Below are positions 9,770 to 16,243 of a stretch of 27,885 nt of DNA, in pieces. Position numbers and translations under genes: made by a program. This stretch comes from a virus: the IMG/VR virus record IMGVR_UViG_3300025117_000936, positions 1-27,885 of that record, one strand, 5' to 3'. The notes below the pieces were generated by a model, which was not told the origin of the DNA, did not search any database, and was given only the letters and a program-made list of their open reading frames with translations. The first letter of the stretch is position 1, and each line of letters opens with the position of its first letter.

Positions 9770-11749
9770 TTATCCCCACAGGATCAGGGTGGTGTCGCCG
9801 TTCGCCGGGTTGCGCAGACGGCTGCGCACCAGCACCTTCTTGCCGCCGGCCAAGCCGTAGCGCGGATGCGTGATGCGGCCGACTTGGCCAGGCTTTGGAT
9901 TGAAGTCGGATCCGCCTTTCAGGCGCAGCACCATCGTGAAGCGCGGCGTGCCGTACATGGCCACCACGCGATCGATTTCGGCCTGCGCGTCCTGGGCACG
10001 CCAGAAAAGGGACACGATCGGTTCGGCAGAGTCGGCGTGCTGATAGCGCCGCGGCAGTGGGCCACCGCCATACACCTGGCCACGCCACAGTCCCATCAAT
10101 TCGTCACGCCGCGGCTGTGGCAGGTCGATCATGTCGGTGACCAGTTCGCCGGCACCCAGCGCCTGGGCGTTAGGCCGGTAGGCCATGCGGCGCGTCAGAC
10201 CGGGCGCCAGGTCTGGCGTGCAGATCAGATCGCTTTCGAGATCCGCGCGCGTCAGATCGAAGGCGAGCGTGCCCCCGTAGGTGTCGGGCGCGATGATGCG
10301 GGAGAAGCGCAGCACGCCGTCATCGTCCTGCCACCACCAGGCGCCCCAGCTGGGCAACGCTCGCGCCAGTGCCGCGCGCGCCCAGCCGCCCTCGCCGGAT
10401 TCCCTGGTGTAGTAGCCGATGCCGGCGTAGCCGGTCGCGGTGTCAATCGCGCTGGCGTCCGCGCTGGACCAGGCCGACTTCCGGACGCGGCCGAACACGC
10501 CCTGCAGGAACTGCAGCAGCGTGGCCGGCTGCATGCCGGCGCCGATGCTGGACACGTCGCAGACCACGGGGCCCACCGGCGGGCTGGTCATGGCCAGCTG
10601 CTGCGCATCGGGCGTCACGGTGTACGTGCCGGCCTCCATGATGTCGCCGCGGTCCATCACCGTGGCCACGTGCGCCAGCGGCGCGTCCGCCATGTACAGC
10701 ACGGTGCCGTCGCTGTTGGCCGGGAGCGCGGGCACGCTTGCCACGGCGCCAATGACTACCGGCTGCGGCGTCCACGCCAGGGCGGGCAGGTTGCCCAGGA
10801 AGACGCCGCGGGCCAGGGACTGGTCCAGATCATCGTGCGCGTCGCTCAGCATCAGCTTCTTGCTGCTGTCGCTCTGGAGCTCGATGCGCTCCACCACGTA
10901 ACGGCCGACCGTGACGGCGCCGGCGACGCTGCCGCCACGGTCTGCCAGGCGGATGGCCACCGGCGTGCCGCGAAGATCTTCCAGCGCCATGCTGTCCAGC
11001 AGGCCGTCCGGATCCACGATGTCCGCCGTCGCGCTGCCGCCGCGGGTCGGTGGATCTCCCGACCAGGGCCAGAAGCCGATCTCCGCGGCGGTGGTGACGC
11101 CCGACAACAGCAGGCCTTCGTAGCGCGCATGCGCGGGCGCGTCGCCGGCGGCGCTCAGGAAGTCCCAATCGGCCAGCCTGGCGCTGGCGCTGGCGGCGGC
11201 AACGGCTGGCCAGCCTGCAGCTGCAGCAGGCCCTGCAGCAGGCCACTGGCCAGCGTTCACGGCGCACACCAGGCCGCCGGCGGTGGGCGGTGCGATCGAC
11301 ACAGCGAAATGCCAGGTTGTGCCCGCCGGCAGGTTGCGGGCGTGCACCAGCGTCGCGCCCTTGTAGAAGGCGATCGTGGGCGTCGCGCTGACCAGGTCGA
11401 TGGCAACGCCGACGATGTCCCCCTTGGCGATCGCCGGCAGCCCTGCGGCCACCTGCACACCGTTCACCCACACCTGGCCATCGTGAAGAGCCCAGGCCAC
11501 GCCGGCGTTTCCCACGGCGCTGTTGTAGGCAGCGCCTGCCGGCACGACGCCGATATCACCGAAAACGGCTGCATCGCCCCACAGGGTGAATTCGGCACCG
11601 CGCACGCCGGTGGAATGCCCCACGTCGCTGCGCGCGTTGCGTGATCCGTTGATTCCATCCGCGGTGGTGACCACCGTCTGGCCACCGTCACGGGCCGCCA
11701 TCGCCGGGCCGATCGGTGCCGCGGCGAAGCGCGCATAGGCCTGCGGCAT
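9770..11749 (-). CDS. Tail tip/hub protein with N-terminal SPRY-like domain
   Basis: The protein has 659 residues. From about 45 to 175 the sequence follows the SPRY (B30.2) pattern: a strand with GVAWALHDGQVWVNG, then KGDIVGVAIDL, then IAFYKGATLVHAR, and finally a Trp-His-Phe strand. SPRY is a binding fold in the concanavalin-like class. The remainder (about 200-659) has tail-hub features, including WWWQDDDGVLRFSR and a C-terminal stretch ending in strands with GQVGRITHPRYG, as in baseplate/tail hub proteins of siphophages. Its start shares one base with the preceding stop (TGATG). The SPRY assignment is by eye. Binding to a host surface ligand is inferred. Confidence 0.65.
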   Translation of the reverse strand: MPQAYARFAAAPIGPAMAARDGGQTVVTTADGINGSRNARSDVGHSTGVRGAEFTLWGDAAVFGDIGVVPAGAAYNSAVGNAGVAWALHDGQVWVNGVQVAAGLPAIAKGDIVGVAIDLVSATPTIAFYKGATLVHARNLPAGTTWHFAVSIAPPTAGGLVCAVNAGQWPAAGPAAAAGWPAVAAASASARLADWDFLSAAGDAPAHARYEGLLLSGVTTAAEIGFWPWSGDPPTRGGSATADIVDPDGLLDSMALEDLRGTPVAIRLADRGGSVAGAVTVGRYVVERIELQSDSSKKLMLSDAHDDLDQSLARGVFLGNLPALAWTPQPVVIGAVASVPALPANSDGTVLYMADAPLAHVATVMDRGDIMEAGTYTVTPDAQQLAMTSPPVGPVVCDVSSIGAGMQPATLLQFLQGVFGRVRKSAWSSADASAIDTATGYAGIGYYTRESGEGGWARAALARALPSWGAWWWQDDDGVLRFSRIIAPDTYGGTLAFDLTRADLESDLICTPDLAPGLTRRMAYRPNAQALGAGELVTDMIDLPQPRRDELMGLWRGQVYGGGPLPRRYQHADSAEPIVSLFWRAQDAQAEIDRVVAMYGTPRFTMVLRLKGGSDFNPKPGQVGRITHPRYGLAGGKKVLVRSRLRNPANGDTTLILWG

Positions 11750-12064: not shown

Positions 12065-12262
12065 CTATCGTGATTCGGCTTCGCGCTGCTTGCGCAGGCG
12101 TTCGTCGCGCTCGAGCGCCATCAGTCGCGTCTCCACACTGGTGGGTGTCGGCGCGGAGGGGCGCGGGATCTGCAGGCGCTTTTCCAGGCGCTGGACGCGG
12201 CGCCACAGCAGCACGACAAATCCGACCGCCACCACGGCGATCAGCACGCACGCGGCGCTCAT
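12065..12262 (-). CDS. Small single-pass membrane protein
   Basis: The protein has 65 residues. The N-terminus (MSAACVLIAVVAVGFVVLLW) is one strong transmembrane segment, followed by a basic helix (RRVQRLEKRLQ) and a charged tail. The start at 12262 overlaps the stop of the upstream gene by 4 bp (ATGA), which decides it over the longer open frame to 12361. Small membrane proteins of this sort occur among phage tail genes, but the role is unknown. Confidence 0.6.
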   Translation of the reverse strand: MSAACVLIAVVAVGFVVLLWRRVQRLEKRLQIPRPSAPTPTSVETRLMALERDERLRKQREAESR

Positions 12263-12906
12263 GCTTTGATCTCCATCGCGTCCGCCGATGGATCCCGCAA
12301 CGATGTGGGCAGCGTAGGCGCAGCCGGCGGCAGCGTCAGGTCGGCGGGCTTCTCCGCCCACTGCGGTTCCTCCTTCTTACGGAAGGCGAAGCCGGAACGC
12401 AGGTCGCTTGTGTTCAGGACGCGCAGGAGGTTTTCGACCTTCGCGCGTGCCGTTCCGTCTGCGAAACCTTCTTGCCAGCGCCAAGCCTGGCCAGCGCCAT
12501 TTTGCGCGGTCGGGTCCCACACCAGATCGCCGTAGCGCTCGCCCTTCCAGTTCGGGCGGCCATCGAAGCGGGGCATCGTCATCAGATCGTCTGCGGTGAC
12601 GTCGCTGGTATGACGCACCCATGCGTCATCCATCTCGATCGTGTCGCCAATGCTGTCCTGGTGAACCGTGTGCGTTGTGGTGTTGCTCCGGCTGGCGTAG
12701 CCGTTCGGCGCCTGCTTGAACGTGCCGTCATCGTTCATCTGCCACGCCTGCGCAGTCATGTGGAAATGGTCCGCTTTCACGCTCAGATCGACTTCCATCA
12801 CCACGCGCATGTACACGCCACTCTCCTGTTCGTGGAAGTCGCGCACCTCGACGTTCTCCGGCAGGCCGGTGGGATAGCCAGGAAGTTGGATCTGCACAAG
12901 GTTCAC
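12259..12906 (-). CDS. Phage protein of unknown function between fibre and tail-tip genes
   Basis: The protein has 215 residues. The N-terminal half appears rich in beta strands with many charged and aromatic residues. The C-terminus (from about 175) is Pro-rich and disordered, with repeated PxxP-type stretches. It starts 10 bases after the fibre gene stop. No signal, membrane segment or catalytic motif is seen. Synteny suggests a tail-fibre-associated protein, and the family is not recognised. Confidence 0.6.
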   Translation of the reverse strand: MNLVQIQLPGYPTGLPENVEVRDFHEQESGVYMRVVMEVDLSVKADHFHMTAQAWQMNDDGTFKQAPNGYASRSNTTTHTVHQDSIGDTIEMDDAWVRHTSDVTADDLMTMPRFDGRPNWKGERYGDLVWDPTAQNGAGQAWRWQEGFADGTARAKVENLLRVLNTSDLRSGFAFRKKEEPQWAEKPADLTLPPAAPTLPTSLRDPSADAMEIKA

Positions 12907-12916
12907 TGCGAATTCC

Positions 12917-15900
12917 TCACGGTTTGTACTGCGCGTTGTGGGTGGCGATTGCGACGCCGGCGACTTCGCCGGCCAGGAACATGCGATTGCCCAGGTCGAC
13001 TTTCACCACCTTCCGGGGCCCGACGAACTGCAGATCGCAGACCAGTTCCAGGTTCAGGTGATCGCCGCGCTGCACCAGCACCTTCTGGCCGAGCATCTGA
13101 GGGGTATGTTTCACACGCCCGTCCGGCAAATCCATGGGTGTCGATGCGCTCTGCACGATGCTGGCGCCCGACGTTGTCACCATGCGATAGCAGTCCTCGG
13201 CGCCGATCGTGATGGCGCGCACTGCATGCTCTTCGACTCGCGCGCCTGGCGTCCGCACGTCTATGCACGGGACCATGTCGCCGTGCTGCAGTTCGCGCAC
13301 CAGGCGGCCGTCAGGCAGGAAGGTGTCGAAGTCCACGCACCAGTCGCCGGGGTTCCCCGTGCCGGGTCCGCCGCCGGTACCGGTGCCGCTAGTGGGGATA
13401 GTGACGTTACCGATGATGATCGCGCCTTCGCCAGCCTGCTGGGCATTCAGGACGTTGGTCTGCGCGTAGTAGGTGCGGGTGCCACCATCAAGGAACGGAT
13501 CCAGCGTGAAGATGATGTAGGTCACGCCTTGGGTCAGACCCGTGACCGCGTTCGTGACCGCGTTGTAGGTGACCGACTCGCCACTTATGTTCGTCGTATG
13601 TGCGTTGACGGTGACTTGTCCGGAGCTATTGGCCGAAAGCGCTGTGGCGTTGCGAACGGACGCGATGCCGGCCACCAGCGACGCGCGGCTGTTGCGGGCG
13701 CCTGCAAGCATGATGCGACTGCCGCGCACGTTCAGGCCGATGCGACGCACGCCGCCATCCATGGCCAAGTCGACGTTGCCTGTGCGACCGTAGGTCGTGC
13801 CGTCCGTGATGACGTTCTGGTCCAGCGTGGTCTGACGGCGGATGTTGCACTGGCGGAATCGTGCGTGGTGCGTCGCCCAGGGCATTGCCACGTTCGCACC
13901 GGTGGTGTTGTTCCATTGCACACCAACGATGGGTCGAACGTAGGCGGTACCGGCGGGGATCTCCACAAGGTTTTCAGCCAGCCAGTAGCCCGCGTGGTTG
14001 ATCGCCTGCCGGCCCCCATAGCCGATGTCGGCGCCATCCTTGTTGTAGAAATTCAGGCCAACGTAGGTGAAGATGTCGATGCCGGCCGGCCGCGGCGTGC
14101 CGATGTCCACGACACCTTCCGATCGCACGATGAATTTCTCGCCAGGCTCCACGGCGAAGCGATCGCCGGTACGGACATAAACCTGGTTGGATCCTGGGCT
14201 GGCCACGCCGCCGGCGTCGCCGATGAACAGCTGCATCTGATTGCCAGACGCGAAGGCCTCGAGACCTACCTCAACACTGACGGTGTAGGCGCCGCCCACA
14301 CTGTCATTCATCCATCCATCCGCCACGAACTCGCCTTGGACGGGCTGATATGTCGCGATCGGATACTGGCCCTTGTTCTGGCCGAAGTTGCCGTTGGGAA
14401 CGAAGCTTTCGCCACTACCTACGGCACGCGGCTGGTCATCGTTGAAGGCCAAACGGATGTTGTCGAAAACCCAGAAGCCGGACGTGCAACCTGTGACGAT
14501 CAGGTTCGCGTTCGCCTTCACGGCGCCGTATGGCACCGTGATCTTTCCGGTGACGGTCCTCCAGTAGGCGTCCGCCTTCTGCCCAGTGGACGGGGCCGTG
14601 GACCAGGCGATGTTCTTTTCGCCGATGAACGTGCCGTCTTTGTTGTAGAAGACCAGGCCGATGGCGCCTTCGCCGTTGGCGATGTTCTGCCACCTGCCGA
14701 CACAGCCAATGACGGACAGCACTTGGCCGGGCCGCACCTGGATCGACTTGGCGTTGACGCACCGCGCATTCGGGATTCCGAAGCTCGCACTGAACACCAT
14801 CAGCTGCGAACCGCTCAGTGCAGCCGGGTTCGTCTCGGTGTACATGCCTCCGTCTTTGTTCCAGTACAGGTCGGCTTGTTCGAAGCTGGGGTTGAACACC
14901 AGGGAGTCGGTCGCCGATGCGAATTCATCAGCGTTCTTCGACCAGCCCGTACCGTTCCAGTAGAAGGTTTCCCGGTAGCTCGGGCGGTACCACATATCGC
15001 CGACGATGTAGGAGCCGCCGGCCGGCGCCGCATCCTGGACGAACAGGCGGATGCGCGCGTTCGCGGTGGTCTGCGCCGTGTTGGCCGCGCTCTGCGCCGC
15101 CGCTGCGTCGATTACCGCCTGTGGCAGGCGATTGTCTGGCGACTCCACCCAGGACGATCCGTTGCAGTACCACCAGCGGCCGTCATCGCTGTCCTGCCAG
15201 TAGTCGCCTAGCTTGGCGCCGGCGCCTCCGATCGCCGGCGCGTTCGGCTGGCGATAGATATCGATCTGCCCATCAGCAGTGGCCTGGGCGTTCTGCGCGG
15301 CGATAAGCGCCGCCAGGGAAATACCGTTGGCCGTGCCGCGGGCGTAGGTCGACGCCTGCACCAGGTTGCCGTCCATCGGCTCCACCATGATGCCGTCGAG
15401 GTCGATGCTGTCGCCCAGCGTCGTGGTGTCGAAATCGATGCGGAACATCATCGAAGGGGATGTGTATGACGTGGGATCCACCACGGCCACGGTGCGCCGC
15501 CATGTGCCATCGGCAACGCATGTCCAGCCTGCGCCGACATGCCCGCTCACACCATCCCACACGAACAGATCGTGTGCCTTGGCGAAACTCGCGGCGCTGG
15601 TCCTGTACCAGAATGAAAGCAGGTACTTCTTGCCCGGGGTACGGGGCACGTTCAAGCCGTTGCCCAGGTACAGATAGCCTTCGGTGGATCCCCCGCCGCT
15701 GCGGGTCAGCCGCCATGCGCCACCTGACCCGACCTTGGTATTCCCGGCGCCGGTGATGCGCGAAATCGTCAGGCCGAAGCTGTTGGTGACGGGCAAAACG
15801 CTGCTTTCCAGCGTGCTGTACTGGTCAGGCAGCAGGTTCACGCCGCTGCCGCCGACGTAGTTCAGCGGATCATCCGGCGACTGCGCGACCCAGGCCGACC

Positions 15901-16243
15901 AGGTGCCGACCAGGCCGCGCACCTTCACGCGCACACGCCAGTGCGTGCGCGCCGATTCGTTGCTGTTGTAGACCAGGTCCGTGCCGCTGTAGACCACCTT
16001 GGACGTGCCGGGGCTGCCGGCGACGTCGGGCGCGCGCTCCACTTCGTAGATGGCGCGCGGCTCGCTGCTGGCGTTCCAGCTTGCCTTCACACCGCCCAGC
16101 TGCGCCGTTACCGCGAAGCCACCAGGTGCGGCCGGTGGCGGCGCCTGGTAGGGGATCGGCATCCATGTGCCGCCCGGCGCGGTGGTGGGCGTCAGCGCAG
16201 GCAGGTCGCCGGCGCCGATCTCCAGCAGCAGGACCTTGCCCAT
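12917..16243 (-). CDS. Tail fibre/tip protein with fibronectin III-like domain and C-terminal Hint domain
   Basis: The protein has 1108 residues. After a short N-terminus and a Pro-rich linker, a fibronectin III-like domain covers about residues 38-125 (WNASSEPRAIYEVER, then THWRVRVKVRG). Two jelly-roll-like modules with the pattern of carbohydrate-binding domains follow, at about 170-290 and 430-590, separated by a WNG/W-type repeat stretch (GDYWQDSDDGRWWY, GDMWYRPSYRETFYWNGTGW) and an Ala/Gln/Thr-rich helix typical of phage fibre stalks. A third module lies near 600-790. The last 140 residues are a Hint-like domain (own entry). The start shares one base with the tape measure stop. It is the likely receptor-contact protein of the tail. 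Confidence 0.85.
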   Translation of the reverse strand: MGKVLLLEIGAGDLPALTPTTAPGGTWMPIPYQAPPPAAPGGFAVTAQLGGVKASWNASSEPRAIYEVERAPDVAGSPGTSKVVYSGTDLVYNSNESARTHWRVRVKVRGLVGTWSAWVAQSPDDPLNYVGGSGVNLLPDQYSTLESSVLPVTNSFGLTISRITGAGNTKVGSGGAWRLTRSGGGSTEGYLYLGNGLNVPRTPGKKYLLSFWYRTSAASFAKAHDLFVWDGVSGHVGAGWTCVADGTWRRTVAVVDPTSYTSPSMMFRIDFDTTTLGDSIDLDGIMVEPMDGNLVQASTYARGTANGISLAALIAAQNAQATADGQIDIYRQPNAPAIGGAGAKLGDYWQDSDDGRWWYCNGSSWVESPDNRLPQAVIDAAAAQSAANTAQTTANARIRLFVQDAAPAGGSYIVGDMWYRPSYRETFYWNGTGWSKNADEFASATDSLVFNPSFEQADLYWNKDGGMYTETNPAALSGSQLMVFSASFGIPNARCVNAKSIQVRPGQVLSVIGCVGRWQNIANGEGAIGLVFYNKDGTFIGEKNIAWSTAPSTGQKADAYWRTVTGKITVPYGAVKANANLIVTGCTSGFWVFDNIRLAFNDDQPRAVGSGESFVPNGNFGQNKGQYPIATYQPVQGEFVADGWMNDSVGGAYTVSVEVGLEAFASGNQMQLFIGDAGGVASPGSNQVYVRTGDRFAVEPGEKFIVRSEGVVDIGTPRPAGIDIFTYVGLNFYNKDGADIGYGGRQAINHAGYWLAENLVEIPAGTAYVRPIVGVQWNNTTGANVAMPWATHHARFRQCNIRRQTTLDQNVITDGTTYGRTGNVDLAMDGGVRRIGLNVRGSRIMLAGARNSRASLVAGIASVRNATALSANSSGQVTVNAHTTNISGESVTYNAVTNAVTGLTQGVTYIIFTLDPFLDGGTRTYYAQTNVLNAQQAGEGAIIIGNVTIPTSGTGTGGGPGTGNPGDWCVDFDTFLPDGRLVRELQHGDMVPCIDVRTPGARVEEHAVRAITIGAEDCYRMVTTSGASIVQSASTPMDLPDGRVKHTPQMLGQKVLVQRGDHLNLELVCDLQFVGPRKVVKVDLGNRMFLAGEVAGVAIATHNAQYKP
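12920..13339 (-). other. Hint (intein/Hedgehog-type autoprocessing) domain of the tail fibre
   Basis: Residues 969-1108 of the fibre follow a Gly/Thr/Pro-rich linker. They begin with Cys969 (DWCVDFDTFLPDG), then a Gly-Asp (LQHGDMV) as in Hint block A. A strand (TTSGASIVQSASTP) aligns with block B, where the usual His is replaced. LGQKVLVQRGD and MFLAGEVAGVAI follow, and the domain ends in THN (1101-1103), the terminal His-Asn of inteins. Only AQYKP follows, so no extein lies downstream and splicing is not possible. Cleavage at Cys969, as in Hedgehog-type proteins, is. Whether it is active is unknown, because block B lacks its His. Confidence 0.7.

Follow-up and report, generated by a model that had tools for sequence, protein, structure and literature searches.

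The fibre-like protein encoded in the window, a 27,885-nucleotide stretch of DNA from a 27.9-kb virus record, carries at its C-terminus a domain which by its modelled fold is a member of the Hint superfamily (residues 969-1108). The domain is part of a so far unannotated family of virion Hint domains. We favour the explanation, with a probability of about 0.6, that this is a new, catalytically variant Hint family resembling the A-type BIL domains, in which a thioester at Cys969 would release or transfer the fibre end and Asn1103 would cut off the short tail behind it. The purpose of such a reaction may be maturation of the fibre tip or its covalent attachment.

The original prediction had described an open reading frame with a Cys following a Gly-rich linker and a Thr-His-Asn close to the end with five more residues, it had noted Ala instead of Cys, Ser or Thr at the +1 position and had noted that the block B His appeared to be missing. 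All of these features were recovered at their positions (Table 1), and the last two hold for nearly all relatives and for the entire family, respectively (see below). Cys969 directly follows the stretch SGTGTGGGPGTGNPGDW, which ends NPGDW and thus places Asp-Trp between the Gly run and Cys. Residues 953-967 of the linker were disordered in a longer AlphaFold model (pLDDT <50). The protein terminates with IATHN-AQYKP-stop.

Table 1. Features of the fibre gene, its C-terminal domain and the adjoining gene (positions in the window)
Feature	Position	Strand	Remarks
Fibre-like virion protein, open reading frame	12917-16243	-	ATG start; 1108 aa = 968-aa body + Hint
Flexible Gly-rich linker, residues 951-968 (SGTGTGGGPGTGNPGDW and one residue before)	13340-13393	-	Sequence
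Hint domain with C-terminal tail, residues 969-1108	12920-13339	-	AlphaFold2, Foldseek, profile match
Cys969 = Hint residue 1, predicted thioester nucleophile	13337-13339	-	Cys in 30/30 relatives
Cys1018 = Hint residue 50, second conserved Cys	13190-13192	-	26/30 relatives
Block B equivalent S-A-S-T-P, residues 1032-1036	13136-13150	-	Thr1035 in place of the canonical His
His1102-Asn1103, C-terminal His-Asn (Asn cyclisation)	12935-12940	-	Kept in 30/30 relatives
Five-residue tail AQYKP with Lys1107	12920-12934	-	Lys in 26/26 distinct tails
Downstream gene, 215 aa	12259-12906	-	Start 10 nt past the fibre stop, other frame

The fibre gene directly follows a tape-measure gene (PF20155). Because the 968-residue fibre body is 84% identical to its counterpart in a prophage of a Pseudoxanthomonas metagenome-assembled genome (L018), the host of the virus is probably a member of the Lysobacteraceae. 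Comparison with this prophage demonstrated strong purifying selection at the codon level on the Hint domain with a dN/dS of about 0.14 (0.161/1.16), while that of the fibre body was about 0.11. The 215-residue gene adjoins the fibre gene in the prophage, too. Judged from the sequence its product is a separate protein and not a C-extein; it had no relative among the reference phages. A fibre chaperone or cap is one possible function of this protein (12259-12906). Elsewhere in the window three consecutive tRNA genes (Pro, Arg, His) are located at 2659-2982 on the plus strand, opposite to the tail genes, and a 659-residue protein encoded at 9770-11749 belongs to phrog_8917 (unknown function) with a weak SPRY-like match at its N-terminus.

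The original prediction had claimed a Hint fold and proposed structure prediction as a check. A Hint fold was indeed obtained from an AlphaFold2 model of the domain built from nine natural relatives (pLDDT 92.3, pTM 0.87). In a Foldseek search against the PDB every match at E≤1e-3 was an intein, a BIL domain or a Hedgehog Hint. The best matches were the class 3 mycobacterial DnaB inteins MchDnaB1 and MsmDnaB1; others were Ssp DnaB (1mi8; TM 0.78, rmsd 2.4 Å), Hedgehog (1at0; TM 0.72), a Clostridium BIL domain (2lwy; TM 0.70) and BIL2 of Tetrahymena. By sequence, a profile of 18 relatives found the gp41-1 intein with E=0.0023. The domain of the window was covered by no model at all in Pfam, NCBIfam or PHROG, and no Hint or BIL family of these collections matched any of 18 members. 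In the profile alignment with the inteins gp41-1 and M. smegmatis DnaB1, Thr67 of the domain fell opposite their block B His, and Cys50 opposite Cys48 of the latter.

Reference phages, IMG/VR and bacterial genomes were searched for relatives with tblastn, patterns and profiles, and 30 domains with a median pairwise identity of 30% were aligned. The relatives found by tblastn (E of 1e-14 and 9e-8) aligned exactly from Cys to His-Asn and a few residues beyond. Since these relatives reside in unrelated phage proteins, chance is excluded. The original prediction had named a lack of conservation of Cys969 among homologues as part of what could refute it. Cys1 was present in 30 of 30 domains as was the terminal His-Asn; since conserved stretches served as seeds for the searches and the start of a few domains was placed by Cys, conservation is somewhat favoured by ascertainment. 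The first position of block B was Ser in all 30 relatives, and the position of its His was occupied by Thr in 28, by Ala in two and by His in none. Thus the loss of the block B His is not a local lesion. The resulting Ser-x-x-Thr replaces Thr-x-x-His, which is a typical, not a defining feature of Hint domains; some active inteins are known to have a substitution here (PMC7664689). The usual block F His is apparently absent as well, and no Cys was seen at the block F position in the profile alignment with inteins. The columns of lowest entropy were Cys1, Ser64, His134, Asn135, Thr67/Pro68 and structural Gly and Val residues; with Cys1, Ser64, His134 and Asn135 among them this fits the expectation of a retained chemistry.

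The domains comprise 133-149 residues, which is in the range of mini-inteins, and contain no endonuclease. In all 30 relatives the domain was C-terminal and no other domain followed it. The +1 residue was almost never Cys, Ser or Thr, but mostly Ala, Val, Gln and others. A bacterial genome (G518) had six matches (L026 and L028-L032), which are several prophage fibre ends and truncated fragments of a CVAAGTWL...ITHNQRHKP subtype. Another genome (G023; L023/L027) contained a divergent member starting with CPQVDEP, with S-E-S-A-P as block B, a shortened block G and the end SHHN-MKPAK; its sequence suggests a second subfamily. Phage DLP6 (L024, KU682439 1-4000) had a second, unannotated Hint copy at 1221-1658, at the end of a reading frame that is already open where the record begins and probably continues across the record ends.

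Behind His-Asn, all relatives had 4 to 8 residues and then a stop codon. A Lys was found in each of the 26 distinct tails, usually at +3 to +5, while the other tail residues varied. In 56 ordinary phage C-termini of matched lengths Lys occurred in 29-45%. The product of the corresponding probabilities, 4.6e-12, overstates the significance because the tails are related; calculated by clusters it was about 4e-7 to 1e-5 at 50% identity (14 clusters) and 6e-4 to 4e-3 at 40% identity (7 clusters). The strictly kept Lys is a new feature, which would be explained by capture of a thioester by an amine; alternatively, a structural role is possible.

BLAST searches with the protein bodies minus the domain yielded six unrelated carrier groups, all of them virion-protein families: siphophage fibres as in the window, N-halves of podophage tail nozzles (L004, L007), jumbo-phage proteins of about 310 residues (LucasX, PhiXhv, IMG/VR), ORF231 of XacN1, VlrC-type proteins of large phages (DLP6 and relatives) and a second DLP6-type protein. 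In most of them a Gly-rich linker immediately precedes Cys. Thus, on the basis of these sequences, the domain is not peculiar to the fibre of the window and ends at least six unrelated virion-protein families. The main text of a proteomic study of XacN1 virions (PMC5852040) does not name ORF231. No match to the domain was found on plasmids.

In phylogenetic trees the nozzle domains were located within the fibre clade and one fibre domain within the jumbo-phage clade. AU tests rejected a single clade of fibre carriers (p=1.7e-6), a single clade of jumbo-phage carriers (p=4e-4) and a clade of window-type fibres plus L021 without the nozzle domains (p=0.007); a narrower test with three fibres only was not significant (p 0.2). 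As monophyly of the domains by carrier family is rejected in these trees and tests, the phylogeny shows that the domain was transferred between unrelated carrier genes. The stretch CAGTACAAGCCGTAGGAGGCACCCATG, which comprises the domain end, stop codon, ribosome site and ATG, was identical in the fibre gene of L018 and the nozzle gene of L004. Proteins of the VlrC family occurred in 927 phage records, where only DLP6 itself matched over at least 80% of the length with the Hint included. Among 399 order-level genomes there were three fibre matches, all with the domain, and no fibre homologue without it; hence the evidence for modularity comes from the nozzle and VlrC families. The domain behaves as a portable module with which phages equip the ends of various virion proteins.

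The nozzle protein is undivided in epsilon15 (gp12), whereas in L004 and L007 its N-half terminates with the domain; the C-half begins 9 nt past the stop and has its own ribosome site. The CP2-like Xanthomonas podophages (NC_020205, ORF19/20) have their nozzle split at the same loop, yet without a Hint, the N-half of CP2 ending in a Gly-rich tail. Because of this, the domain in L004 and L007, as far as gene comparison goes, sits at an exposed loop end where extensions are tolerated. The split nozzles span 293-3396 in L016 (NC_020205) and 4888-8061 in L004; L007 is likewise split inside the loop that is uninterrupted in epsilon15 gp12. Stop codon and next ATG are in frame in L004 and L007, while the CP2 split is out of frame. 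Joining of the two halves by read-through of the stop was rejected because each half has its own ribosome site and the genes are out of frame in CP2 and at the window fibre.

In the favoured mechanism Cys969 would attack the carbonyl of Trp968 to form a thioester, with Ser1032, Thr1035 and Cys1018 replacing the usual Thr-x-x-His. Resolution by water or an amine would free the fibre or transfer its flexible Gly-rich end to another group, and Asn1103, aided by His1102, would cyclise and cut off the AQYKP tail. The first step is less assured because the block B His, the usual assistant there, is absent family-wide. Loss of this residue is compensated in some active inteins, and BIL domains mainly cleave (PMC7664689). 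By analogy the Thr, the Ser and the conserved Cys50 are candidates for such a compensation. In the M. smegmatis DnaB1 intein mutation of Cys48 abolishes splicing (PMC6195587). The same Cys48 forms an intramolecular disulfide under oxidative stress, and redox control via the aligned Cys50 of the phage domain is possible. As a separate reading, which we consider unlikely, the domain may ligate: the Cys thioester on the Gly tether would be captured by an amine and cross-link or anchor fibre ends and other virion proteins, and the variant active site, with Thr instead of His and with Cys50, would be tuned for this reaction. The amine may then belong to the tail Lys, to an adjacent virion subunit or to the surface of the host.

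As the main rival reading, the domain could be a catalytically silent Hint fold, a knob on a Gly tether that has a structural or receptor-binding role at exposed ends of virion proteins. The family-wide loss of the block B His, the lack of Cys, Ser or Thr at +1 in nearly all relatives and the exposed C-terminal site on flexible linkers agree with such a role, and in principle the conserved Cys and Asn could be structural only. Yet both reaction ends, Cys1 and His-Asn, were retained without exception while most of the domain diverges, and a knob has no need for a short tail with a fixed Lys past Asn, so that we rate a silent domain as rather doubtful. A selfish or passively mobile mini-Hint, spreading between the 3' ends of genes where it is harmless and of no benefit to the phage, would account for the transfer between unrelated carriers, the several copies and fragments in the bacterial genome G518, the two copies in DLP6 and the stretch shared identically by a fibre and a nozzle gene. 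The mini-intein size without an endonuclease, the invariable location at C-termini of virion proteins rather than in random genes and the strong purifying selection all speak against it, and it appears the least probable of the readings.

Splicing had been excluded in the original prediction, which was too strong because A-type BIL domains without a +1 nucleophile can splice by another route (PMC5874633; Aranko et al. 2013, by its title as cited in PMC7664689). In the fibre, cyclisation of Asn would free the tail and the amine of the tail would attack the Cys969 thioester to give a mature fibre ending in GDW-AQYKP with the Hint domain lost. A tail that is short and yet constrained to contain Lys is compatible with this. 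On the other hand, tail length and the residues other than Lys vary freely and an exchange of 140 residues for five has no obvious gain, which makes BIL-style splicing very unlikely. A true cis-splicing intein was rejected, as the C-extein would consist of five residues only and the following gene starts on its own in a different frame.

Reports of Hint domains in phages usually concern inteins of replication and packaging genes; the literature covered contained inteins of terminase, helicase and nucleotide-reductase genes and HINTs of toxins only, and no Hint domain of a virion protein. The domains described here are a separate family at virion-protein ends and allow a name to be given to the ends of many structural phage proteins so far called hypothetical. 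If they are active, they would constitute a new post-translational step in the maturation or attachment of tail fibres and other virion parts. In addition, they would provide a minimal Hint active site of natural origin that lacks the canonical His and would be useful for protein ligation.

In fold and catalytic residues the intramolecular chaperone/autocleavage domains of tailspikes (ICA, Peptidase_S74) are not known to be related to Hint. As C-terminal self-cleaving domains on phage fibres (PMC8326128, PMC10579305) they are a precedent for a maturation step of this kind. The PT-HINT domains of polymorphic toxins, which autoprocess and lie towards the end of long filament proteins that are exported (PMC3482391), resemble the phage domain, but a PT-HINT was rejected because no toxin domain follows in any of the 30 relatives and the tail in the window has five residues. 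The Hog domain of Hedgehog (1at0), which passes its N-terminal protein to a nucleophile, shares the C-terminal location of the Hint, Cys1 and the fold at TM 0.72. Unlike it the phage domain has a His-Asn end, no sterol-recognition region and no block B His; with the stop codon five residues past Asn there is no room for a sterol-recognition region, and a Hog domain was thus rejected.

Among inteins, class 1 was rejected on account of the +1 Ala, the stop after five residues and the separate, out-of-frame downstream gene. The class 3 DnaB inteins MchDnaB1 and MsmDnaB1 are similar to the phage domain as the best structural matches and in the correspondence of Cys48 of MsmDnaB1 with Cys50. Yet class 3 inteins lack Cys1, use a block F Cys and have a WCT motif, whereas in the phage domain Cys1 is the presumed nucleophile and there is no C-extein protein. 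With Cys1 in 30 of 30 relatives and no block F Cys in the alignment, class 3 was rejected as well. The A-type BIL domains, whose main activity is cleavage with occasional splicing (PMC7664689, PMC5874633, PMC7765530), have a Hint fold without endonuclease (fold match 2lwy), Cys1, a terminal His-Asn and no nucleophilic +1 residue, and sit in variable proteins (PMC7765530, PMC5874633), all of which is also seen with the phage domain. The latter differs by the Thr for the block B His throughout, the lack of a detectable sequence-family match and its site at the extreme C-terminus of phage virion proteins with a Lys-bearing tail of 4-8 residues. By this comparison the phage domains form a new family of their own, a variant within the Hint superfamily, which most likely works in the manner of A-type BIL domains.
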